64,000 nt of DNA from Agelas oroides (taxonomy: Eukaryota; Porifera; Demospongiae; Agelasida; Agelasidae): contig OX422185.1 in NCBI GenBank assembly GCA_949130485.1, positions 4,467,928 to 4,531,927 of the forward strand, read 5' to 3'. This document shows positions 10,473-51,801 of this stretch, in pieces; position 1 is the stretch's first letter; the number at the start of each line of letters is the position of its first letter. The notes under the pieces were generated by a model that was given only the letters and a program-made list of their open reading frames with translations, made no database searches and had not been told where the DNA came from. The translations under genes and the position numbers were made by a program.

Positions 10473-13400
10473 ATGACCTTCGAACTCAGCTCAAAGATGG
10501 CTGTGGACAGATCGCGTTTACGCCTTTATAGGATCATCAGCAACGAAGATCTTGCCAGGATAGGGAGAAAACTGACTAGCTGGACAACCGTAACTCCTTA
10601 CCTCGGCCTCAGCGAAGCTCAACACGAGGCTATCAAGAACGACTTCAGACTCACAGAAGAGCAGAGGTTAGACTTAGTTAATAGTTACGTAAATTTATTG
10701 TATTGATAGTCCATATTTCTTCCAGGTATGAAACATTGTTACAGTGGCAGAAAAATAATCCAGGGGCTACTTTCAGTGATTTAGTTGAGGCCTTTCACCG
10801 AGCTGAGCGACCTGACATGGTTGATGTAACTTGCCAGGTGGCTGAAGACAGTAGTGATAGCCCACTTCTGGTTCCACGACGTACAGTTCGAGCTTATTGG
10901 AGTAAGTTTCAAAAAATATTTGTACAATAGTTTTGTTTATTAGGCAAAGTAGATTTATTGTTTCACATCAGCACCCACTTCATTTGAAATCTGCTGCCTA
11001 AACTGTCATTATCGTCTTCCAAACCACGACCCGCCCAGCTAGGGCAGCACTAAACTCTAGGTTCTGTGAGTATCTTAGGGTCCAGTTTAATAATAATAAT
11101 AATAATAATAATAACTGCATACCTGCACCAGAAGTAAATTTCAGCTGACCAGAAACATACATTTATATATTAGGATGGCCTAAAAAACCTTGGACACAAT
11201 CTAAGCACTACTAGACACAGTTTGTGCCTTTGTTTTAAGACGTAATAGCTTGAATGAACCCCCTGGAACACGCAGTTTATGCTACTCAGCAGAGGCTGTA
11301 CATTTAGAATAGCCCATTGTGTTGTGTGTGTGCTAGTTACATGACAATTTTTCAGCATGATTTAACCTCTTCTATGTGATAATTTAGGCTTGCTTTCTTT
11401 TCTCCTTCAGAGAAACACGCTGTAGTATTATTGGTACTTGTGTTTCTAGTCGGCTGTGCTTTTATCAACGTGCATTGGATGTCTAGGAGTAGTGATCTCC
11501 AGATCTTTGAAGGGAGCAGTCGAAGCAGGAAGGGGGAGCACAACTTGCCTTCTTTCAATTCTCCGTTTGTTGGGCGAGAGGCAAATGTATCCAAAATCAC
11601 CAATATGCTGTTGACTGACCCTTTTGTCCGGGCAGTTCATATCACCGGTGCTCCTGCGATTGGTAAAACACGTCTAGCTGTGCAAGTTGGTTTTAACCTA
11701 GTAGAACATGGTGTGGATGTACATTACGTACATGTTACTGAGCAGTGGCTCTGGGTGCAGCCCAACAAACCTTCACCAGGTCCAAGTGATAGTTCCAAGA
11801 GTGAGAAAGACACAACAGCACTGATCAAGAGTGGAACATTCGATTTGATCGTAATGGGTTACTTGTGGTTGTTTCCGAAAGAAAGAATAAAGGATGTACT
11901 ACCGTCTGCATCTGACCTAATTGAGTGGGTGGAAGACTTGAAAGTCCCCACTGTTGTAATTCTGGATAACTGTGATGATGTGCTGGAGGGCCACCTTCAG
12001 GATGATCTGTTTGATCTGATTCAAAAGCTTCGCAATGCCTCCAACTTAGTCAAAACCATATCAACAAGCCGTGTCCACTTTACTCCCACTGGGATAAAAC
12101 ACTTTCCGTTAGGTGCTCTGGATGTGGTCAGCTCCACAGATCTCTTGCAGCGTGAGTGTGAAAATATCAAGAATGAAGAGGCAAGACAAATTGCTGGGCT
12201 AGTTGGTTGCAATCCCTTAGGTCTAAGGTTAGCGGCTGGTCTTGCTTGTGTCATGCCAGTACAAGCATTAATAAGTGAACTGGAGGATGACTCAATAAAA
12301 ACTCTGAGTTGTGAATCAATTCCATCTCAAGAGAAAATGGACTCCCTCATTGAAACCTCCATTAACCGTCTTGAACAAGATGTAAAGTTGTGTGCCAAGA
12401 ATATCAGTCTTTTTCCAAGCTCCCTTAGTCAAGAAGCAGGTAAACGCGTTCTTAGTGGATTAGGTATTCAAGATATTACAAGCTGTTTCAACAAACTTGT
12501 TCACCGATCACTGCTGGAGTGGTATTACATTGACAGTGATTCACGGTATATATACCATCAGTTGATAAAGGATTTCCTTAAGCCTATGAGCTACCATGAT
12601 TACTACAAAGGTGACTCGGGGTTTTGTGTACACTATGTCAGTTACTACACATGGCGTGTTATGAATCTAATAGAGGATTGTACAATTGAGTTCACTAAAT
12701 ATTGTAAGCACTGGTTTAGGAGTGAAGATCAGAATGTAAGGCATGTGCTGGATGCAATTTCCTACTGTCCATTGCACAAGAAGGTTGAAACACTACTTCA
12801 GTGGAGAGGGATACTTACAAGTCCAATATTTTGGGAATTTTATGATGAAGAAACAGTGGCTGGACTTATTCACAAAGGATTACAACTCATTTTAAAACTT
12901 TATGACAGTAATGGTGTGGATGCCTTGAAATCTTATGGAAGAGACCTCAACACTACTTTTAGTATCCTTTCAAAGCAGGCAATTGAGTGGAACAGAGCAA
13001 AGTTCACATACTTGCGACAGCAAAGAAATTCCTTTTCATATTTCCAAAGACCGGCAATTGTTAGAGAATTGATCAATCTATGTGTTGTTGAATGTCAAAC
13101 GTACTGCACGGAGTCAGAAGAAAACAGCATCCCTACTATCTTTTTCCATTTATGTCGGCTCAGTTGTGACAGAGACTGTCGATATTACATCACAGAAATG
13201 TGTCTGGTAGCACTCTTCACCTCACTACTTTTACCACATGTTGTACAAATCTTAAAACTACCCAAGACCAGGTATAGGTGGTTGAATTCAATTGTGCTGC
13301 ATGTGTCGGCATATGCTGTATCACTCATGGCATCAAACACACCAGCACACTATCTTGCTAAGCTGGTTCAGTTGTGCACCTCATATGTACTACCACTGAT

Positions 13401-13788
13401 TCAGAATAGAGTTAGTGTCTCCACTGCCTTTGATTCACTGTACTTACTTAATACTCTGATGGAACTCATGATGGTATTAATGTCTGCTTCAGCTAGTCTT
13501 AGGTTTGGTGGCTTGAAATCTTTTCTGTTCTTCCCAGTTTCAATTCTGTTCCTCTACTATCTGAGTGACCATATCTCACTACCATTCACTGTGAGAGTTA
13601 TCACTGTGCTCTACATTTGGTTTGTCAGTGCAAGGTCGGTAACCTTTCTCAAGTTGTCTGTACTGCTTCTTGTACTGGCTGGGCAGGAGCTGGTCTTGAC
13701 AGAGTGTCCATACTTGTCTGACTCGAGCGTTTGGAATATGAAAAGTTGCCAACATCATGCAGTAATAAGTTCATATACTACAGTGTAG
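10473..13788 (+). CDS. Gene A: Death - TM - NB-ARC receptor-like protein
   Basis: Three exons fit in phase: 10473-10666, 10726-10901 and 11411-13788, giving 915 residues. The 59-bp first intron (cagag^gttaga ... ttccag^g) is needed to join the Death-domain halves smoothly. Residues about 15-115 form a Death domain (DLARIGRKL..., LLQWQKNNPGATFSDLVEAF). Residues about 124-145 are a hydrophobic helix straight after it. A NB-ARC NTPase follows: VGRE entry motif, Walker A GAPAIGKT (residues 203-210), Walker B VVILDNCDD (from 305), STSR sensor-like motif, GLPL-like GCNPLGLRLA, and a winged-helix part with YHQLIKDF. No LRR, WD40 or TPR repeats follow; instead the last third has about five hydrophobic segments (for example CLVALFTSLLLPHVVQIL and VITVLYIWFVSARSVTFL). 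By family it should be a signal-sensing STAND ATPase that recruits Death partners, here probably membrane-bound. Start could also be the Met at 10497, which has a strong context. Confidence 0.88.
10902..11410 (+). other. Intron 2 of gene A
   Basis: Phase-1 intron with donor a^gtaagt and acceptor ctccttcag^ag. It holds an (AAT)n run of about 27 bp near 11090-11115 and nothing else recognisable. Confidence 0.8.
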
Positions 13789-15371: not shown

Positions 15372-18300
15372 ATGTCTGACCCATGGCAGAACAGCTCCTA
15401 CCCACTAGATGGGGACTGCCCTTGCAGTAAACTTCACCAACATCTACAGTCAGATAGTAGTAGTGAAACCAGTGGATATTCTTCTACTAGTGTGAGTGGC
15501 TACAGCAGTTTCAGACCAGAAAGTCGCCGTTCTCTGTCTCGCACAAGGGATTCGCTAGCATTGAGTCATGATGAAGGGAGCACCATCAACATCTTTATCA
15601 ATGTATGTTATGGCATATTGAACTTAAAAGTTAAATTTGCAGGTTTGTACATAAAATTTTGAAGGGCCACTTGACTGTCTATTGACACTCTAAAGCTTCT
15701 ATAGTAAACCAAGGGTATGACACAAACTATAACCATTTTCCATATTGAGCCCTGAATCTAGCCAAGGCTTTAGGCAGATAACAGACTATATTGAGCAGAT
15801 ACAAATAAGCAGGTACAAGCCTCTTCACTGTGAAACCGGCAACAGTCATTTGCCACTGTGATACTGACTCTTGCACTTTCTCCATACAGTATCCTCCTCG
15901 ATTAATGCAGAGTGCATTTGAACTAGAGTGCATTAGCAGACACAGTAAGTTCTGGGGACTGTAATGGTTGATGTCAATAGAGTTAACCACTTCTACACAT
16001 GCCTGTAGCTCTGATGCTGATATAGCAGATCAATATTCACAGTGTGCATGTAATTCTAAATTTGGCAACACAGTACACTCAATGTGTAATATGAGTAGTG
16101 TTCAGATTGCATGAAAACTGTTAACATGCAATGGAATGTGGGAATTGCATGGGGGATGCAACTCTGTTACCATATTATAATATGTGGGATGTCACTCTGT
16201 ATTCATAACACAGTAATTAAAAATAACATATATAGTATATTATGGTATGTGGGATGTAACTCTGTATTCACAACACAGTAATTAAAAACAACATAGCATA
16301 TTATGGTATGGGGGGTGTAACTCTGTACAGTGATCATGGTATATTAATAGAATGTGTAGGAGTGAAACCCTGTATCAGGAGTAAAGGATACAATCATCCT
16401 CAAAATTAATATTTGGCTCTATGAATACTGTTACTGGACGTAGGGGTAAAAATAGTTCACAAACACAAGTGCTTCTGTTATGTAACTTGAATGTCTATGT
16501 TATTCAGCATTTTGTGAGTACTGCTCCTCTTGGCATGCAAGAGTGCATGATGATATCATTTTTAATCATCATACACACTTGTCTAAGGATGCATGTGTCC
16601 AGCAACAGTTGTGCATTGTTCTCTGAAGTCAAGAACTAGTTGTTGTCCTCATTGCCCCTTCCCTGAGTATTCAGAAACATGAGTCCAGATTTAGTAATTT
16701 TGCCGGAAGTGGGGTGTACAAAGTAATTCGTATGCATTTTTTTTGTAATCCACACAACACTCCAGGTGATGTCATTTCACCACGAAATGTGAAACTACTC
16801 AATGAGTTTGCACCTGAACTGGTTGACAGTATGGATGCATTAGCACTGCTACCATACCTAATGCGATATGGATTAGCAAACAGACATGATCAAGAGATCA
16901 TCAGCAATTCCAACAAGACAAGTCTACAACGGAACATGTACATCATTCACAGAGCTCCATTTAAGGATTCAAATGCCTTTGAGCGCTTTGTGAAATGTTT
17001 GGAAGAAGTAGGCAATGAGTTTGCAAGTCAACTGCGTCAAAGGATAAGTAAGTTACTGATTGCTTTACTTCTGCTTTTATTAAGGCAAGCCTGAGCGAGC
17101 CCCACTTTAGCAAATGGAAAGGTGGATCTTCTCTCTTGTAGCCCAGCAAGGCGTATAGTCTCACGGGCCAGACTCTCACATGGGGTATGACTCACGAGAC
17201 TAGCAAAGCCAGTTGGGTGTCTTTGCAGACTATCTATGTCTGTTGTGCATATTCCATATGTATTTTTAAGCGTATATGGACAGCTAGTAAAAATTTTCAC
17301 TCTGCAAGCTACAGTATACTTTCTAGCATGAGCAGTGTGCATGTGGGTGAAAATGGCTACAAGAGACGTTTGGGAGGAGTAGTTGAAGTGTGAGTATCTA
17401 CTGTATGAGGGATGGAAGTTGTGTTGACAAACCTGCTATGCTTACACAACGCAGAAGGCAGCAGATTGTCCGAGTTGAACACCTCACAGTTATGATTTTT
17501 GACACCTCTCCTAATTTTTGTGTAAGAACTATGCCATGACAAGCCAGGCAGTGTGTTCAGAGTCAACAGAGGTCAGCAGGAAGCCAGACTTAATCTAACT
17601 TACAGACATTGTATGATGGTAAATGAGTATGCACTGGTGAAGTCTTAGAAAGCCAAATGTGATGCTCACTCAGGCTCAATATTTTACATTTGCACCAGTA
17701 ATTAAGATTATGATTATCCACTTTGAAATGCTATTCAGTAATGAACCTTTGCCTAAATCACACACATGCGCACGCACATATACATGCTCACACACACACA
17801 AAGCATGCAATGATGACATGGTCACAGCCTCTATTTAGTCACAAATATAATAATTGGCTAAAATATCAAACACTGCATTCTGGACATAGCATCTTATATT
17901 TACCCTCAAAACATTTCCACTCGATGATACTGTGGTACCCTATACATAGGGAGGTCACCCCCGGCCCAACACCAGCTGACACAAGCAGAACCTGGAAGCC
18001 AGCATACAAGTTGCCAGGAGCAGCCAAGCAATTTTTACCCTGGAACAACTGATGATGCAGATTTAGTGGATGAAAGGTTGCTGGATTCCCCAAGCAACGA
18101 GTTGGAAACATTTAGAGAGTATCAAACTTCAGATTCAGAAAAAGAAAGTCCACAGAGTAGTAGGTCAGACCTCACTGAAAGTACACTGATACAAACACAA
18201 CCAAGCACCCTGTCCAGTACATCAGAGCATACTGTGTCTAAGAGCACTTCAATGCTACAACCATATCCTGAACATGATGTTGAGCCTTGCAGCCAGTATG

Positions 18301-41059: not shown

Positions 41060-44000
41060 GCTCACAGTTTGCACTCTTAAGTATTTTACCTGTTGTAGCA
41101 CCTGAATCCTTGTGAGTTCCTAAGTAATTGATTGACTCGTAACCATGTTCTTACTGTATAGTATGAAGGATATACATTAGAAATTGTGTTTGTACAGGTG
41201 CTACTTGTCAGTATACCACTCGATGACCTGCCCAGCAAATCCCCCACTCTGCTGTCCCTCGCAACACTGTGGGTCAACATCCTCCTCCGAAAGGCAGTAA
41301 GAATGAAACACTGGTCCTGGGCTTATGTTCTCCACATTCTAAACAATGAAGCTGCCAGCGTCACTTTTGATGAGCTGTTCAGAGAAAGCATTCAATACTC
41401 ACAAGGAGACATGTCTACTCAAGTGTTTTTGAGTGTTCTTCAGAATGAACTATTGCAAGACGAGCTTTTTAACTTCCTGAAAGTATTAGCTCAGAAGTGT
41501 GTTGCTAAAGGAGGTGCCTTGCAATTGCACAAGCTGAAAAATCTTGAACTAACAGTTCCTTCTTGTTTCATGGAAAACTCTGAATTAAAGCTTGAATTTG
41601 AATTGTTCATGAGTGGTGGCTTTGAACAAGCGCTGCAAGAGTGTACAACCCCAGAGAGCTCAGATGAATCTCCACAGCTCACAGCATACCTCACTATTCT
41701 ACTTGATGATGCTGATGTGTCAGAGATACCCAGTGGGTGCTCAGATGGGGAAAGTCAGCTTACCAACTCATCTGCAGATGACCCTCCTCTCTCACCTCGT
41801 GAGGCAGAGAGTATTTCCAGAGTTCAGGATTGGTTCTCTCAACTTAATCATGATAAAACTAGCTCCCAGTCTTTATTGGTGGAAAATGATGCTCAGAGCC
41901 AGAGCAAGAAAGAAAAAACTACCATCAAACAACAGCAAACCAATGCCATTTTCAGGCACATAAGTTCCTCAGAATCAGATTTAGAACAGATAGATTGTCA
42001 TGGATCAACCAACCCTGCACGTCCTTTCCCAGCAGTTGCAGGAATTAGTGAGATTCTGCCCAATATCTTACCTTCAAAAGCAGGTACCATGCAAGAAGAC
42101 AGTGCAAAAAATCTACTAGCTCCTGGAGAATCTCCCAATATACAGTCAGCAGAGACTGGATTGCTGACACCACTGCCATCAACTGAATCATTTTGGAACA
42201 AACCCTGTAAACCACTTTTAGAAGGTGGTATGAATCATGGGAATGTTGCTGCAGCTGAGCATTTAGCTGCACATCTTAAACCAGAGGAGTACATGTATTC
42301 AAAATCCTTACTTGCTTCAGCAAGAAATGAATCTATGGTTGATGGTGGCACGTCCACATATATTCAAAGTGCCAGTTTGAACTCAACCAGGGAGGAGGTT
42401 CAACTATGCCTCCAAGAACCAGCTAGCACAGGCACATCTATCAGGATGATGATCACTGGTCGAATTTGTCAGGGAAAGTCAACGCTAGTGAATAGCTTGA
42501 TGGGCAAGGTGGTGGCAACTGGGCCTCGCTCTGTGACATGTAACACTGAAAGCTTTACAGGACACATCAATGGTTTTCAAGTAACACTGATTGATACACC
42601 TGGGCTCAGTGACCTCAATAAATCAGACCAAGACATCTTAGCTGAAATTAGCCAAGAAATTGATGAAGAACCCATTCATCTGATCTTGTTCTGTGTGAGA
42701 ATGGATGGAAGATTGGAGAAAGATGACTACAGGATCATGCGAAAATTGACACAAGCATTTGGGCAGTCCATCTGGGAGCATACTGTCTTTGTACTCACGT
42801 TTGCCAACAATGTTAAAACTGACACTGCCACATTTGCATGGACACAGGCAGAGTGGGATAAGAACCTTCATGAGTATGCACACACTAAGGGAGGAGTTCA
42901 AGCTGATATGGCTGAACAAATCCCTGTGGTTGTTGCAGGTGATGAAGACGAGAGGCTTCCAGGTTGTGAGAGTTGGTTCAGTCGGTTTTGGGCTGCAGCA
43001 ATCAACCGAAGCAAGGACATTGCCACACCCACCTATTTGTCCTTGACATCAGGTCAGAATAAGTTGACCAACAATGACTTAAATGAAGGCTCTTTCATGA
43101 ATGCTGCTCACTTGAAGAATGGGAAGGACACTACTGAAATAGCAAATTCCATTCCAAGTACTCCAGGGTTGGACACTGGTGTTCCAGCTACCAAATGCTG
43201 CATGTGCACTGGTGCACCACGAAACCCACAACAACCATTACAAGGACATGAACCCAGTGAGAAACTAGCTACTTCAAACAGTAAACCTACCGATGTATCT
43301 GTAAACCATCTTTCCACACCTTGCCATGTACATGAAAATTTAATATGCTCCACAGACCAAGAAGAAGGAAGTGCTATATCTTATGGACTGTCTTCAAGCA
43401 GAGAAACTGATAATAAAAAGTTGCCTGTAAAACCACCTGACATTCATGAAAGTATGGATACTCAGCTTCCAGAAACAGAGAAAGGGAATTCAAATGAAAA
43501 AATAGTCTTGTCACATAGTTCAGGCCTACCCCGACCACAACTGTGGTATACAGAGATTCTTCAAATTGATTCTGATCTTAAGAGCCTAAAAACCTTCATC
43601 CTGTCTTTGCCTGTTGAGGTGCTAGTTTTTACGGATGCAGCACAAGGTAAGACACTGTGTCATGCCCTGGTTAACTTGAATGATCAGGGATTTTCTTCCA
43701 CTGATGTGATCTACCTTCTTGAATTACTTGGAGAAGACGTTCTTCAACACTGCATGGTATGTCAGGACTTCTTGAGGAACACACCTCTGCACAGTGCTAT
43801 TGAAGCAAAGAATGCTAGTACTGATGTTGTGAAGTTCCTTTTGAGATTTGCCACATGTGAGTCTGTAATGATCATGAACAATGACAGCTTGACCCATTAG
43901 AGTTGTCTTATGAAAAGAAGCTCTGGCCAATTACTAAAGTGTTGATTGAATATTGCATTGAAACTGGAGCAAGTTGTGCTGCTGAACTCCTTCAACAGTA

Positions 44001-47000
44001 CATTTTCAAAACTATGACAGAAGAGGGGGGAAATGTTTTTCTACCTCGGCTTTTAGAAATTCGAGAGCATTACTGCCCTGATCTTGACCTGAACTTTAGT
44101 GAATCAAGATCAAACCGCACACCATGGTGGTATTTGGTTAACTCCAATGATGTTAATGTTATGACAAGGGTAGTTCAAGCTCTGAAAGACCATTCCATTG
44201 ACTTCACAATCTTACAAATACATACTGAATGTGGAGGAAATTTAGTTGAAGAGGCAGCAGATAAGAACAAAGACTTGTTTACAGTGATCCAGAATGTTAC
44301 AAAATTGCAACATAGTGAAGGAAATCTTGAAATACCAGAGGAAGCTAATGCAAGACATATAAGTTCCTCAGAATCAGATTTGGAACAGATAGGTTGTCAT
44401 GGATTCACCAACCCTGCACATCCTTTCCTAACAGCTACAGAAACTAGTGAAGCGCTTGTCTTACCTTCAAGAGGTATTGTACAAGAAGACATCAAAGAAT
44501 TACCTCCTCCCATCACTCAGCTAACAGAGACTGGATTATCAACATCAACTGAATCATCTTCAGACAGAGATTTGACTTCACTACAATTCGAAGCTGATGA
44601 CTCATCTGATGGTGGGCCTGGAGGAGTATTGTCTAAAGCCAAGCGTCCTACTAAACATAAGAAAACAACTTCAGTAGTGCAACGATGTTGTCGAGTTCCT
44701 GCAAGAACAAAGAAGAGCTCCATGGTGGTTGTATGTCAACGTTCTGGGTACTCTGGTGATGATAGTGATCATAAAAATAAAAATGAACGTAGCCGAACAA
44801 AATCCTCAAAGTTCACCAGTACACAGAGAACAGCTGGAATAAAGAGAAAGGAACAGTTCAACGAGGAGAGCAGTTCGGAGTACAGTGAAGCAGAAATCGA
44901 AGAATGCTCTTCTCCAATATGGAATGAGGAGCCTACATCTGTGGTTCCTTGTGGTATAAAACTCACATTTCAGGGTACATCCTGTACGTTGCAAATTATC
45001 AATTGTTTATCACTAATTATTGGTAGCAGCACTCCTGACTCAAGATCTACAGAGCTGCATTATGCTGTCAGATGCCAGTGCCTCCAATCAGTCAGGGATG
45101 TCCTTGCATGTGATGGAGGCGAGGATCAAATTCAAATGATGGATGAAAAGGGACACACTCCACTTGACATTGCATCACAGAACAAAGATTTGAAAATATT
45201 TGAATTGTTGTTGGAAAGTTTATTATGTTTACAAGTTAATCTTTCTGTGACTCTACCACCTTGTTCTGGTTGCCAGCAAATGAACCTCCTGGCATCCATT
45301 GTCAAAGTGCTATCGAAGAAAGAGATAGACATTGATGACTCCACTCTCCACTGGATTATAGTGGGCTGCCAGCACTGGAAAATCCCAAGGGTTGTATATG
45401 CAACACCTACAACCATGGCACTGTTACAAATAGATTTGCTTTCATCTTACCAGAACCAACTGTTGGTGGACATACTATTAAATTTCGATCGCACAGGAAG
45501 TAAGAAGAAAAGGTTGATGCAAATTGTTCAGAGAGGGAGAGCCATGGTCGCTTCAGTACCAACAACTCAAGAGGCAGTACAAAAACAAAACAAAGTCACT
45601 GCTAACTCCACTTCAGAGGCAACCACAGATAGAATGGCTGAAGACTCTTGTTTATACTCCCAACCCAAATCTTCACCTATACAATATACCCACAATCAAG
45701 GGGAAACTCAAGAATTTGCTGCAGTACAAGAACAGGGAATTGCATTTCAATCTGAAATGGTGTCTGTTACTCACATGGGTGATCTCATACTCATTAGAGC
45801 CTACACAGACTCTCTGGTAACAGGCCTCACACTGATTCAGAGTAATGGTCTTGAGTTTCGTCAAATAAGAACAGCTTTGGGCATACCCCCCCACCAGCCA
45901 GTTCAACCCCAAGATGCCTCAACCACGGCTAAGATACCAAACTCTGCTGATTCTACTCCTCCACTGAAACCGGCAACCACAGGCAAGAAGACTCTACCTC
46001 ATGTGGCTGCAGACTCTCCTTCACACTCTCAACCCAATTCCTCAGCAGCTAAACTGTTTACCCAGAGACAAGTCTCTCGGTCTTCTGGTGCAGCCCTCAG
46101 GTCATTGGGATTAGACTCTGGTAAGGAAGTCATCATATGGCGGGCTTGGATTAACAAGGCTGTAGATTGCCTCCATGCTGGCTACTACTCCCAGATGTTG
46201 GAAGTGTTAAAGTTTGGAAAGGTCCCTCCCTCGTTCCCTGCTGAAATTGCCATGGCAGCTCAGTTTGGGTGTGCACTTGCTTACCACAAACTTGAGAGGT
46301 ACAGTGAGGCAGGCAAACATCTTGAGAGTCTTAAAACAATTGCTGCATCAGCACAGAGCTGTGGAAATGAGTCTATTGCCAGCGTCTACCTGGGTGACAT
46401 TGAGTATACACAGTCCAAATACACAGAAGCTGCTAAACATTACTCCCATGCCTTAAAACTGCACAAGAATGATAATCTTGGCAAAGAATACCGTCTCATT
46501 GTTCCTACTTTCTCAGCCATATCAACCAAGCTAGGTACAGCCTTCAGGAATACATCAAAGGTAGTTGATGCAGTGCAGGCATACAGACAAGCCATATCCA
46601 CTGCAGACTCCAAGAAAGACGAGCTCTCAGCTCACACAAGTCTGGGGAACCTCTTTCAGAGCGTTGGAGAGAATGCAAGTGCCCTAGCAGAATATGAACA
46701 CTCAATCAAGCTGTCAGAAGAGCTGCGAGATTATGTCTCCCTTGGTTGGGCTAATGGGAACATGGGCAATGCCTACCTCGGTCTCTACCAGCAAGACAAA
46801 GGTCTCTACCACTTGGAAAAGGCATTAGACCTGACAGTAGAGCATGAACCAACCCCACAAGCCATTGGTAGAGCCTACAACAATCTTGGTACCGCACATC
46901 AGGCCCTGAATGAGTTGGACAAAGCAGAGGAAAAATATGACCTAGCTCTCAGCCAGGCCATATATGGCAATGACCTTCCTGGTCAGGCCAGAGTGTATGG

Positions 47001-50000
47001 CAACATTGGAAATGTTCTGATGCTGAGGAAGGACTATGACAGAGCCGTACCACACTACACCAAGGTCCTACGTCTCTCAAGAGACAGGTCCACTGTCTCC
47101 ACTGCCTTCCACAACAGAGGCTGCTCCTACTATGAGTGGGCAGAGAGCAAGAAGGCAACTCTACCTCAGAAAGCTGGATTTTGTCTTCATGGTCCTGATT
47201 TTGAGAACTGTGAAGTTGAACATCAGCCATCATTCAAGTCACTTCCCAACAGCATCCTGAAGTACTACCAACTTGGGAGACAAGACTTGGAGCAAGTCAT
47301 AAAATACCATGAAGAAACATTTGAAAACATGAAAGGGTCTTCCAAGGGCCTGACACTGTCAGTCTCTCTCTTTGAGACCAACTCAAGGACCTTCCATCGC
47401 CTCCAAGACTGTCTTGTCAACCTGGGAGAGTGGGAGAAGGCTCTGGTTGTTGCAGAACAGAGCAGAACCAGGACACTTGGGGAGCTGTTGGTGAAGAGGA
47501 AGAGCTCAAAGATTGACAACCCACTCACTGCTCCCCTCAACCTTCAGAATATCACTGATATTGTGCAGTCCCAATGCTCTGTGGTGGTGTACCTCTCATA
47601 CACTGGAGCCAGACTCATGGGGTGGGTCCTAGCCCCGACACCTGACAAGGTCTCAGTAGACATGTTTGAAGTGCCTCTAGAGGATGACCAGTTTGATGGA
47701 AAGTCATTCGACTATCACCTGAGGTACAGCTTGACAGAGGAACTGGTGGAGAGGAGTTTTGAGATGTACAGAGCAGTTGACTACAAATCAGATCAGAGTG
47801 AACCAGTTAGGAAGCTGTACAAACTGGTCTGCAAGCCACTGATGAAGATTTTGAAGGAACTAAAAGACCCTGAGTCAGCCTGTGGAGTGCAAGAGGTGAT
47901 CATCATCCCAGACAGCTACACCTGCCTTCTACCATTTCCCTGCTTGCTTGATGAAGAAGACAAGTTTTTGGGTGACAGCTACAGTTTCAGAATCATGCCA
48001 TCCCTTCTGACTATGGGTATTGTTGACCAACTTCCTTCAGTTGTCGTCAAAGTACCTGCAGATGGCCGAAGCATGTGTGTGGTGGGGAACCCAACAATCC
48101 CATCATTTATGTACAATGGTGACCAGTGGAGTCTCGGAAAGCTTCCGTTTGCTACACGAGAGGCAGAGTGGGTGGCAAGCATCCTCAAAACTGCTCCAAT
48201 TCTTCATGAGCAGGCAACCAAGGATGCCGTCTTAATGAGGATCATGAATGCGAAGGTGATTCACATAGCAACCCACGGCAGTGCATCAGCCGGCTTCCTA
48301 GCATTTGCAGGCATGTCTTCTGCCAGGAATAGAGAAACTGTTGAAGCAAAGAACGTTCTACTTTACCCTGATGACATTGAACGACTAAGCATCTCCCCAG
48401 CCCTAGTGGTCCTCAGCAGCTGTGATAGTGCGAGAGGGATGGTGAAAGCAGACGGAATTCTTGGTATGGCTCGAGCATTCATTCTTGCTGGTGCCCAGGC
48501 AGTTCTCACCACCCTCTGGCGGGTGCCAGATGAGTCTGCCTCTGTCTTCATGCAGTTCTTCTACCAGTACCTGATGGATGGACTGAAGGCATCGTTAGCC
48601 CTCCAGAAGTCCACTCTCAGTGTGAGATGTTTCAGCAAGTACTCCCAGTACATCCACTGGAGTGGGTATCAGCTCACAGGTGAGTTCAAATCTTCAAGCA
48701 CAGTCATTTTGCAAGTACTTCAATAGTTTTCCTTTTATTGCTTTCAGGGAGAGAGGTCCAATTTGACATTACGATGCCCAGCACTGCAGCAGCACTTGAA
48801 GCCAGACTTGGCAAGAGCAGTGTGTTCCCTCGACTGGAGGTTGTCCAACAGCTGGAGTCAGCCTTCTTGAAAGATCCTCGCACTCCCTCCGATGTGCAGG
48901 TGTTGTGTAAGAAGATTGTTGACTGAGAACATGACATACAATCTTACGTGCTTTTTCAGACCGGTAATCCTACTATTATAATCCCAACCCTCAAGGGATG
49001 TCTGATGTTTTGCACCTACAGATCTTGAGAGGCCCCCCAGGAGTGAAACCCTCAGAGCCTCTGGTAGACTTCATCCACTCCTTCCACTATGCATTCAAGG
49101 GAGGGATCTTCTGGATCAATGGCAGGAGGCAGGAGTTTGTTGACACAAGTGCAGCTTACATCAGGCAGGTACGTCCAACAAACTAAGTAGCTTTTCCCCT
49201 CAAGTACTTGCCATAATTTTATTATTACCCGCTGGTAATCATCGATTCTGCAGGCAACTGGGACTGTGCCCACCGCATCACAAACTCATCCTGTCCTCGT
49301 CATTTTTGACCATATCGATCAAATGCCACGCTTTTCTGACCCCTCAACATCATTCATGGACCTCCTGAAGCACTCAAACACACACATTGTAGTCATCTCT
49401 AAGAACTATACACCTCCTGATGCTCTGCTGAGGGACATTGATCACCAGCTCCTGAGAGGCTGCAACATAATTGACGTGAAGCCACTATCACCAATACACA
49501 CCACTCAGCGAATCGTTCACTCCATACTAAGTCCTCACCACCTTGCACCCACCAATGAGGACCAGAACATCTTTGAGAAACTTGCACAGCTCACATCTGG
49601 GTCCCCCGCCCTCATTGATATGACAGCAACATTGTTCCTCTCACAGATGGAGCATGACTCTCAGAATGCATCACAAGACACTCATGACACACTCGTAAAC
49701 CTCAAGTGTCAACTTTCATTGGATAAAATGGACCCTTCCACAAAGCCAGTCACCATAGTCAGGTGTGAATCTCCAAAGGGAACAGCAAAGACACGAGAGA
49801 TTTCCAAGTATGTCTATGACAACATCATCTCCATCAGAGCTACTGAGCAGGATCCTTGGTGTACCAGTTCCCCATATGATTCGTGGCAAGCAGTCACCAC
49901 ACTCATAGACCAGTGCCATCTCAGTGCAGAAGAGAAGCTGCTGCTGTTTGCAGTGTCCATGTTCAGCTGCAGCCCCATCCCCATGAGCGTGGTCACAGAG

Positions 50001-51801
50001 ATCTCATCAATGATTGCAACAGCTACTCACAAACCACACATCTCAACCAGCCTACACTCTAAGCTCTTCCAGATGCAGCTATTGAAGAGGTACCCACTTC
50101 CAGTCATCCTGCACCCCTCACTGGGTGTTCAACAGCCGTCAACTGAGCCAGAGTTTGTCTACATCCCACAATACATCACACAAGCCATTTGGAAAGATAT
50201 GATGTCAGACAGAGACAAAGTGATGGCACTCACCACCATGTACATGGCACTGCGTACTCTGGCAGATAATCCAAATTGCTTTGACATTGGATTCGTCGCA
50301 GGACTCACCTCCCTCCTCATGGAGAGGTATGAACTGAACTATGAGCTGATGGGCAAGCAATGCTACCAGGAGGTCTGCAAGCTCTACTTGCGGTTTTACA
50401 CCAGAATGGAGCAACAGTCTAAGATGACTGCTATGGCAGATATGGCACCTTCGCATAGTGCCGCCCACTTTGACACCAAAATGGAACAACAAAACTATGA
50501 GCTGATAGGTAAGCAATGTTATCAGGAGGTCTCAAGTATGTTTGGCCTGGAAACTCTCTAAATGGATCTGTGCTTCAAGTATGGTGTAAAGCCTTGATGC
50601 TCACTATGGTAATAACAAATGTGCAGTGATTTTGGACAACTTTATAGCACAGTGTAGTGCATGAAGAAAAAATGCCTCTCCCTGAGGAAGTTGCTATAGC
50701 TACCTGCTTCAGTATACTTCAAATAGATATTAGTCAAGATGGAGGTCCCACTGTTTGCACTTGGTAGGTGAACGCAAATTATGAGGTCTGTTGCTGTGGT
50801 GGCTAACTAGGCTGCAACAATATTTTAACAACAAAATCACACTCTCACAGGTCCTTGACATATGGCCAAGCATTGCTGAATGATCTGTGTTAGGCTTACC
50901 CTAATCACAATCATGGCTATGCAAGGACATCTGTTTGGGCCATCACACCAGGACCATCGGAAGGTCTTTCGAGGTGGAGCGGCTAAGGCGTCTGGCCACG
51001 CAGCAGTCAAGAATATGTATATACATAATTATATATATATATTTTTAAACAATCTGCTGGCATTTCACGTTGCATGAACGCGCTACACGCACAAAGCTTC
51101 TATATGCATGGAAAGAAAATTTCACAACGACACCCTTCAAGTTAGTGAACCCTGTTTGCTCCAAGCAAGTAACGAAATGCTGGTAAGCGGTTATGCAGGT
51201 AAGAGTCAAGTAAACTTCATGATGATCTTTGTCTTCCTCGTGGACCACTTAGGCTGGAAAGAGTGCTTTACCACTGATGTCTTTCCAAGTTCACACTGAG
51301 AAAAGTGGCTTGTCGCTAATCACACATGCAGGCTTAGGCAATAGGCAGCTGATCGGTCATTGCTCTAACTCGACAGAACCAACACGTGTTCAAAGTTCAG
51401 AAAAGTGGGGCAACCCGGGCCGTCTCACCCGCCCCGCTTCCAATAGCCTTGCACACTGATTAGCAGTAATGGTGTAGTTCATTACTTCCATCTCCCTCTG
51501 CCCTCAGATCTTAAAGACATGGCAGACATCAAAGAATACCTACTGGATTTGGAGAGTGTTCACATTTACAACCTTGGGCTGGTGCTGGGACTCAGCGATC
51601 ATAAATTGAAAGCCAAGATGGACTCCAGCACTTTCCTGAGTGATGTCATTCATGCATGGCTACAGAGGGAGGACCAAGTTGAGGAGAGGGGAAGACCAAG
51701 TTGGAAAGCTCGTTAATGCTCTGCAACATCCTAGAGTTAAGCAAACAAAAAATGCTGATCGCATTCTGAAGGACAAGGAACTATACCTAAATATATTATA
51801 A
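41060..51801 (+). CDS. Gene C: GTPase - ankyrin - TPR - CHAT - NB-ARC-like - Death
   Basis: Exons in phase: 41060-41111, 41212-48679, 48748-48899, 49022-49168, 49254-50508, 51508-51801; about 3,100 residues, 5' end not found. Order: helical region of unknown type, Ser-rich linker, AIG1/GIMAP-like GTPase (42440-43020), ankyrins (43640-44000), second linker copy, more ankyrin (45040-45220), TPR array (46120-47470), CHAT protease fold (47540-48679), NB-ARC-like module (48748-50508), Death domain (51519-51801). The TPR-CHAT part resembles TTC28-like proteins, which are expanded in some invertebrates. The frame is broken at about 43894 (one base missing in a C run) and about 51706 (one base too many in an A run); elsewhere the exons are intact and splice sites good. 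Likely a cytosolic signalling or execution protein of a cell-death pathway. Architecture is seen directly; role is inference. Confidence 0.85.
41953..42205 (+). repeat. Linker duplication in gene C, copy 1
   Basis: Encodes HISSSESDLEQIDCHGSTNP, then PSKAGTMQEDSAK and ETGLLTPLPSTES. Copy 2 at 44352-44560 encodes HISSSESDLEQIGCHGFTNP, then PSRGIVQED and ETGLSTSTESS. The copies flank the GTPase-ankyrin block. Confidence 0.88.
42440..43020 (+). other. AIG1/GIMAP-like GTPase domain of gene C
   Basis: G1 GRICQGKS at 42458-42481, a Thr in the CNTESF region as G2 candidate, G3 DTPG at 42593-42604, a G4 position occupied by VLTFANN instead of the Ras-type NKxD, and VVAGDEDE as G5-like. This pattern fits the AIG1/septin-TOC branch of P-loop GTPases, which often dimerise and act at membranes. 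GTP binding looks intact. Confidence 0.85.
43640..44010 (+). other. Ankyrin repeats of gene C, with frame break
   Basis: Repeats read HALVNLNDQGFSSTDVIYLL, RNTPLHSAIEAKNASTDVVK and NNDSLT, after which a stop appears at 43898. In the next frame the expected continuation of an ankyrin repeat (ELSYEKKLWPITKVLIEY) follows at once. The break coincides with accca at 43892-43896, where one more C would restore the usual TPLE motif. Confidence 0.85.
44352..44560 (+). repeat. Linker duplication in gene C, copy 2
   Basis: Second copy of the Ser-rich linker at 41953-42205; see that entry. It is followed by a basic, low-complexity stretch (KRPTKHKKTT, KKSSMVVV, KNKNERSRTKSSK) that looks like a nuclear-localisation-type or disordered segment. 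Confidence 0.88.
46120..47470 (+). other. TPR array of gene C
   Basis: Successive 34-40-residue helical repeats with the W/L-G-Y-A-F-A-P pattern, for example ASVYLGDIEYTQSKYTEAAK, AHTSLGNLFQSVGENASALA, GNMGNAYLGLYQQDKGLYHL, NNLGTAHQALNELDKAEEKY and GNIGNVLMLRKDYDRAVPHY. I count about eight or nine. Such TPR arrays precede CHAT domains in bacterial and animal proteins and bind partner proteins. Confidence 0.92.
47540..48679 (+). other. CHAT protease domain of gene C
   Basis: CHAT is the caspase-HetF-associated fold. The segment has IIIPDSYTCLLPFPCLL, the substrate-pocket region VVGNPTIP and LPFATREAEWVASIL, the catalytic-type histidine in VIHIATHGSAS (His codon 48274-48276) and the cysteine in LVVLSSCDSARG (Cys codon 48421-48423), then ILGMARAFILAGAQAVLTTL. 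Both catalytic residues are present, so protease activity is possible. Confidence 0.92.
48748..50508 (+). other. NB-ARC-like module of gene C, degenerate P-loop
   Basis: Three exons. The P-loop position reads RGPPGVKPSEPLVDF: the GPPGV start is kept but the invariant GK(S/T) is lost. GGIFWING follows, then a Walker-B-like VLVIFDHIDQM, an NB-ARC-like IVVISKNY, the VKPLSP..TTQRIV motif and a GLPL-like SGSPALIDM. The rest is helical. The module keeps the fold but probably not ATP binding. Confidence 0.75.
50332..50540 (+). repeat. 52-codon repeat at an exon end in gene C
   Basis: tatgagctgatgggcaagca at about 50340 and tatgagctgataggtaagca at about 50496 are copies 156 bp apart, both followed by atg(c/t)ta(c/t)caggaggtct. 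In the second copy a gc-to-gt change creates the donor ag^gtaagc that ends the exon. Confidence 0.85.
50509..51507 (+). other. Intron before the Death exon of gene C
   Basis: About 1 kb, phase 1, donor g^gtaagc, acceptor ctgccctcag^at. It includes unused remains of the second repeat copy (about 50509-50540) and no gene. Around 50970 there is a tRNA-like D-arm string without the rest of a tRNA. Confidence 0.7.
51508..51801 (+). other. C-terminal Death domain of gene C
   Basis: Reads DIKEYLLDLESVHIYNLGLV, LGLSDHKLKAKM, LSDVIHAWLQREDQ, RGRPSWK; then an early stop at 51714-51716. In the +1-shifted frame the typical ending LVNALQHPRVKQTKNADRI follows and stops at 51801. The break is at tggaaagctc (51702-51711), where one A fewer would restore WKLVNAL. 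Either a Death domain with a recent frameshift or an indel error. Confidence 0.82.

Follow-up and report, generated by a model that had tools for sequence, protein, structure and literature searches.

Organization of the locus

The DNA analyzed here, referred to as the window, is a 64,000-nucleotide stretch of contig OX422185.1 of the sponge Agelas oroides. Its subject is a gene candidate on the forward strand at 41.1-51.8 kb. On the basis of sequence and predicted folds, this region holds an AIG1-type GTPase, ankyrin repeats, a tetratricopeptide repeat (TPR) array, a CHAT protease domain, an NB-ARC-like module and a Death domain. Searches for related loci covered the 259-Mb assembly of 141 contigs, in which the window lies on contig C3.

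Three long open reading frames (ORFs) follow one another on the forward strand, at 41162-43900 (ORF1, 912 amino acids, stop to stop), 43885-48726 (ORF2, 1,613 amino acids) and 49239-50561 (ORF3, 440 amino acids), and a fourth, short frame at 51447-51716 (89 amino acids) carries the Death exon. Their translations are designated P0001, P0002, P0003 and P0004, respectively, and Pfam matches were listed to E <= 1. The gene model built from splice signals contains four predicted introns 3' of the CHAT domain. The first predicted donor is kept in 3 of 4 paralogs, and the second and third are kept in all 4; one pattern was used per site, and a miss does not mean that the donor is absent.

The TPR-CHAT core

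The part of ORF2 that extends to the first predicted donor (43885-48679) includes a second ankyrin block, the TPR array and the CHAT domain. The TPR array (46384-47094, limits approximate) matches TPR_12 with E 2.2e-22 and TPR_1 with E 3.1e-21, and the CHAT domain (47800-48679; P0002 residues 1306-1599) matches PF12770 with E 2.3e-48 (165.6 bits against a cut-off of 24). By Pfam, the array is N-terminal of a single CHAT domain, which is the layout of animal TPR-CHAT, TTC28-like proteins. Both residues of the catalytic dyad are kept in the window copy, the His in IHIATHG (codon 48274-48276) and the Cys in LSSCDSARG (codon 48421-48423). An earlier note, made from the letters of the window, had proposed a TPR array joined to a CHAT domain with its His/Cys pair, and both were recovered. 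Among 132 fetched relatives, the His is present in 126 and the Cys in 123. In the paralog C14b, the catalytic His is replaced by Gln (IATQG) next to an intact Cys motif, and its CHAT domain is likely a pseudo-protease.

No classical caspase (PF00656), NACHT or LRR match was found in P0001-P0004 at E <= 1. The genome as a whole has 32 PF00656 matches, every one of them outside the window, so the window protein would act beside caspases.

The GTPase and ankyrin end

ORF1 comprises an N-terminal region, the AIG1-type GTPase domain and a first ankyrin block. The GTPase domain (42443-42826, converted from P0001 residues 428-555) matches PF04548 with E 6.2e-22 (78.4 bits against a cut-off of 27). 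It retains G1 (GRICQGKS) and G3 (DTPG), as the earlier note had read, and the identities of the AIG1 and CHAT domains are firm. The G4 position, read by eye in P0001, is VLTFANNV, which does not look like a standard guanine-specific form.

The ankyrin matches in both frames are under the Pfam cut-offs. Block 1 (43643-43849) was recognized by Ank (E 0.0022) and Ank_2 (E 0.027), and block 2 (45034-45219) by Ank_2 (E 2.4e-5), whose 25.2 bits fall short of the cut-off of 27.3. In the relative P0009, Ank_2 clears this cut-off with a score of 47.4. Block 1 is common to the paralogs C14a-d.

The NB-ARC-like module

Two small predicted exons, at 48748-48899 and 49022-49168, separate the CHAT domain from the main part of the NB-ARC-like module. 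The second of them carries the segment equivalent to a P-loop. A canonical Walker A motif, GxxxxGK[ST], is not present in this segment, which reads GPPGVKPSE; the same position is GSPGVKPSE in C14a, C14c and C14d, GSSGAKPSE in C14b, and GSPGMNPSE or GAPGINPSE elsewhere among the fetched relatives. The next predicted exon (49254-50508), from the Walker-B-like strand on, ends at the donor TGATAG/GTAAGC. At this predicted last donor, at about 50330-50540 of the window, YELMGKQCYQEV is followed by YELIGKQCYQEV as a short tandem duplication.

P0003, a query that does not include the P-loop exon, matched no Pfam family at E <= 1. Its structural model matched Apaf-1, CED-4 and plant NB-ARC in a predicted structure search, and the label NB-ARC-like is kept because the fold search decided where Pfam was empty. 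Modeling thus supports an NB-ARC fold for the window module, whose Walker A departs from the canonical form.

The Death exon and its family

The last predicted exon (51508-51716) is frame-broken, with the rest of the domain in another frame from about 51640. A profile of the family of this exon matched with E 2.1e-33 in the frame of 51447 and with E 1.4e-5 in the other frame from 51640. Sequence searches did not label this exon: PF00531 is absent among the families of the 17 A1 members at E <= 1, P0004 gave two weak and meaningless Pfam matches, and PDB sequences gave only two weak, unrelated ones. An unbroken near-copy, P0213, comes from another record and is 95% identical over 65 columns. 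In a structure search, its model had a fold like the FADD Death domain. The match of the predicted fold is our reason for keeping the Death assignment despite these sequence nulls. The modeling supports the view that the window exon encodes a death fold, and the Death domain claimed earlier is upheld to this extent, although it has no Pfam match and its frame is broken in the window.

The exon is a member of a death-fold family not recognized by Pfam. It occurs at 67 places in the genome, and those inspected by eye (L009-L028) are terminal phase-1 exons in 20 of 20 cases. In the protein database the family has 678 matches, with no Pfam label among the 120 matches listed. The Death profile found 1 of 136 fetched proteins, namely the P0004 of the window, and an exon behind an intron would escape such a search. 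Death exons may be missed among relatives because most of these are gene calls that look intronless.

Paralogs, relatives and selection

CHAT occurs at 18 places in the genome, including one weak fragment. Eleven of these regions were read with wide flanks and the other 7 by match coordinates, one of which (L007) was also scanned with 1.5-kb flanks. A Death match lies within 10 kb downstream on the same strand at 2 of the 18 places, in the window (2.8 kb) and in C14a (2.1 kb). Among the 11 regions with wide flanks, the NB-ARC-like module occurs in 7, AIG1 in 3 and Death in 2, and AIG1 and Death occur together in the window copy only. Five CHAT copies are clustered on contig C14 at 8.11-8.33 Mb.

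The TPR-CHAT part has 649 relatives in the protein database, and the Halichondria panicea protein P0111 is 57% identical to it. An N-terminal AIG1 domain is present in 8 of the 120 relatives listed from these 649 matches. Other relatives carry RING-type modules (P0094 and P0112), ten IQ motifs (P0030) or a kinase domain (P0129) at the N terminus. These modules vary across relatives, which gives the family the appearance of a constant TPR-CHAT core whose ends can be exchanged. In the TPR-CHAT tree, the position of the window gene relative to its close copies is not resolved, and the grouping of P0111 with P0030, both long rows, may be false.

Ratios of nonsynonymous to synonymous substitution (dN/dS) were obtained as simple pairwise counts between the window gene and its paralogs. 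They were 0.09-0.25 for CHAT and 0.10-0.25 for TPR. NB-ARC gave 0.26-0.36, AIG1 gave 0.34-0.40, and the ankyrin and N-terminal parts gave 0.28-0.65; for Death, a single pair with 62 codons gave 0.38. The paralogs are under purifying selection, and the TPR-CHAT core is the most constrained part. The faster evolution of the N-terminal half fits the expectation for a sensor. The Gln in place of the catalytic His in C14b counts against a picture of uniform constraint.

Elsewhere in the window, an open frame at 11383-13788 on the forward strand has a P-loop-like GAPAIGKT and sub-threshold matches to AAA_16 (E 1.2e-5) and nSTAND3 (E 2.5e-5). A CARD domain (PF00619, E 6.5e-7) lies about 3 kb past this STAND/AAA-like frame, at 16627-17094 on the same strand. 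Together they are perhaps another STAND-CARD immune gene.

A proposed multidomain protease receptor and its alternatives

Three sequences cover the joins piecewise, so that any two adjacent modules are found joined in at least one copy. C14c has AIG1, ankyrin, TPR and CHAT in a single open frame of 2,776 amino acids, and the annotated protein P0111 has TPR, CHAT and the NB-ARC-like module, without Death. In C14a, the NB-ARC frame continues into a long proline-rich stretch and a GTAAGT donor; after a phase-1 intron of 93 bp, an acceptor leads into a Death exon that is intact. The fourth intron predicted in the window is likewise of phase 1 and, at about 1 kb, would connect the NB-ARC-like frame with the Death exon. 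This intron and C14a suggest that Death is in the same gene as CHAT in the window copy, and a single mRNA would then span all of its modules. The paralogs also support the domain order proposed earlier, in which a non-caspase protease is joined to a death-fold module.

Our preferred reading, with a probability of roughly 0.5, is that this gene, an elaborated member of the animal TPR-CHAT family, encodes a large single-chain protease receptor whose function we infer. AIG1 and the ankyrins, at the N terminus, would serve as a variable sensor and switch. The TPR array would keep the CHAT protease inactive and bind the substrate. The Apaf-1/CED-4-like module, with its non-canonical Walker A, may serve as an assembly scaffold and not as an ATP switch, and the C-terminal Death domain would gather chains or recruit a Death-bearing partner. 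Upon a trigger, CHAT domains might be clustered or rearranged, or freed from the TPR array, through AIG1 and Death; CHAT would then cleave a target protein, leading to cell death or an immune response. We likewise infer autoinhibition, activation and outcome. A bolder and doubtful version is a single-chain apoptosome, in which one polypeptide would supply the sensor GTPase, the protease, the Apaf-1-like scaffold and the Death adaptor, with CHAT replacing the caspase and AIG1 replacing the lost nucleotide switch of NB-ARC.

Several observations weigh against an intact single gene. ORF1 and ORF2 meet in different frames (43885-43900), inside an ankyrin unit, at a site where P0006 and P0009 are continuous, and the Death exon of the window copy carries a second frame break at about 51640. 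The full module set was seen in the window copy only, itself broken, and no copy that was read is wholly intact. Assembly error, allelic variation or decay may account for these breaks. The one-gene claim of the earlier note thus holds for the joins seen piecewise in paralogs and P0111, but in the window it meets two frame breaks and predicted introns in place of one frame. The TPR-CHAT gene might instead end after the NB-ARC-like part, the Death exon being a neighbor or a relic that is not joined to it. ORF3 does continue to its own stop at 50561; C14b, C14c and C14d stop soon after the NB-ARC part without a Death match, and P0111 likewise ends there. The window intron is about 1 kb versus 93 bp in C14a, and synonymous divergence between these two copies is higher for Death (dS 0.51) than for CHAT (0.20). 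We consider this separation unlikely, given that in C14a a short intron with good signals and the same phase connects the NB-ARC frame with the Death exon. In addition, the Death exons of the window and C14a share a clade of 4 of the 21 rows in the Death tree (support 97/94), though its inner order is weak (87/36) and it includes L024, which has no known CHAT nearby.

If the breaks reflect decay, the window copy could be a recently decayed gene of which only the paralogs function, a case that would leave the receptor reading intact for the family. The two frame breaks are in line with this, and the loss of the catalytic His in C14b indicates that decay occurs in this TPR-CHAT family. The window copy nevertheless keeps long open stretches (912, 1,613 and 440 amino acids), dN/dS is well below 1 in each module measured, the Death near-copy P0213 is unbroken, and both breaks may be assembly errors or alleles; recent decay is rather unlikely on this balance, though not strikingly so. 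Less probable still is a scaffold in the cytoskeleton or in cell division, in which the protease and Death parts serve binding and not death. Human TTC28 is reported, in the available text, to be the homolog of TPR-CHAT proteins and to function in cytokinesis (PMC12314368), and not every member keeps the dyad. Yet the dyad is retained by the great majority of fetched relatives in the counts given above, members carry immune-type modules (AIG1, Apaf-1-like and Death), and the 18 CHAT places found here compare with the 1 or 2 TPR-CHAT genes that the same text reports for most non-anthozoan animals (PMC12314368).

Comparison with known systems

The receptor reading relates the window gene to several described systems, whose published accounts are considered here as far as their available text extends. 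TPR-CHAT proteases take part in prokaryotic defense, and in fungi CHAT proteases contribute to cell death. In animals, TPR-CHAT genes are expanded in Acropora and Montipora, and TTC28 is the human member (PMC12314368, PMC9145168); two Acropora genomes have 276 and 304 such genes, with an unclear role in animals (PMC12314368). Like the window gene, these have a TPR array followed by one CHAT domain, with copies clustered, but the available descriptions mention no AIG1, NB-ARC-like or Death modules, which the window gene has (PMC12314368, PMC9145168). Fungal NLR-CHAT proteins, which are linked to gasdermin, also combine CHAT with an NLR-type core or TPR/ANK in one receptor. Their protease is N-terminal, with no Death or AIG1 in the available text, whereas the window gene reads TPR-CHAT-NB-ARC-Death and its Walker A is non-canonical (PMC12881547, PMC10197012). 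A fungal TPR-CHAT protease is reported to activate gasdermin; elsewhere this is drawn as a model, and another pair uses a serine protease (PMC12881547, PMC10197012). In Porifera, of the set of NLR, Caspase-1 and GSDM, only NLR and Caspase-1 were found, according to the part available (PMC11508797). Our gasdermin search of the genome gave no match, and neither did its control, so it permits no inference.

Craspase shares with the window gene a TPR-CHAT protein with a His-Cys dyad, and it is held inactive and allosterically released on a trigger. That trigger is a CRISPR RNA effector, and no GTPase, NB-ARC or Death is described in the available text, unlike in the window gene (PMC9729208). Sponge NLRD proteins join Death to a STAND-type module, as the window gene does. 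They consist of an N-terminal Death, NACHT and LRR in the available description, whereas the window gene has a C-terminal Death and neither NACHT nor LRR by Pfam (PMC12909245).

In the open PMC literature, none of the listed titles and opening lines of abstracts reports a protein with AIG1, CHAT and Death together, and a fusion of CHAT with both an Apaf-1-like module and a Death domain was likewise not found. A member with CHAT, an Apaf-1-like module and Death would link this protease class to animal death-fold signaling. The fusion would give a testable functional hypothesis for animal TPR-CHAT proteins and point to a pathway alongside the caspases. It suggests that a second protease, not a caspase, may have been built into the cell-death machinery of some animals. 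A single-chain apoptosome, if true, would amount to a death-fold protease pathway that runs in parallel with the caspases, and independently of them, near the animal root.

The predicted fold of the window module is shared with Apaf-1 and CED-4, which are likewise coupled to a protease. Apaf-1 and CED-4 recruit a separate caspase via CARD; the window gene has CHAT as its protease within its own chain, and an altered P-loop. The earlier suggestion of an undescribed system is sustained for the fusion, for which we found no prior description, and not for its TPR-CHAT core. Because that core has already been described in corals and in human TTC28, we regard the window gene as a variant of a known family and not as a wholly new system.
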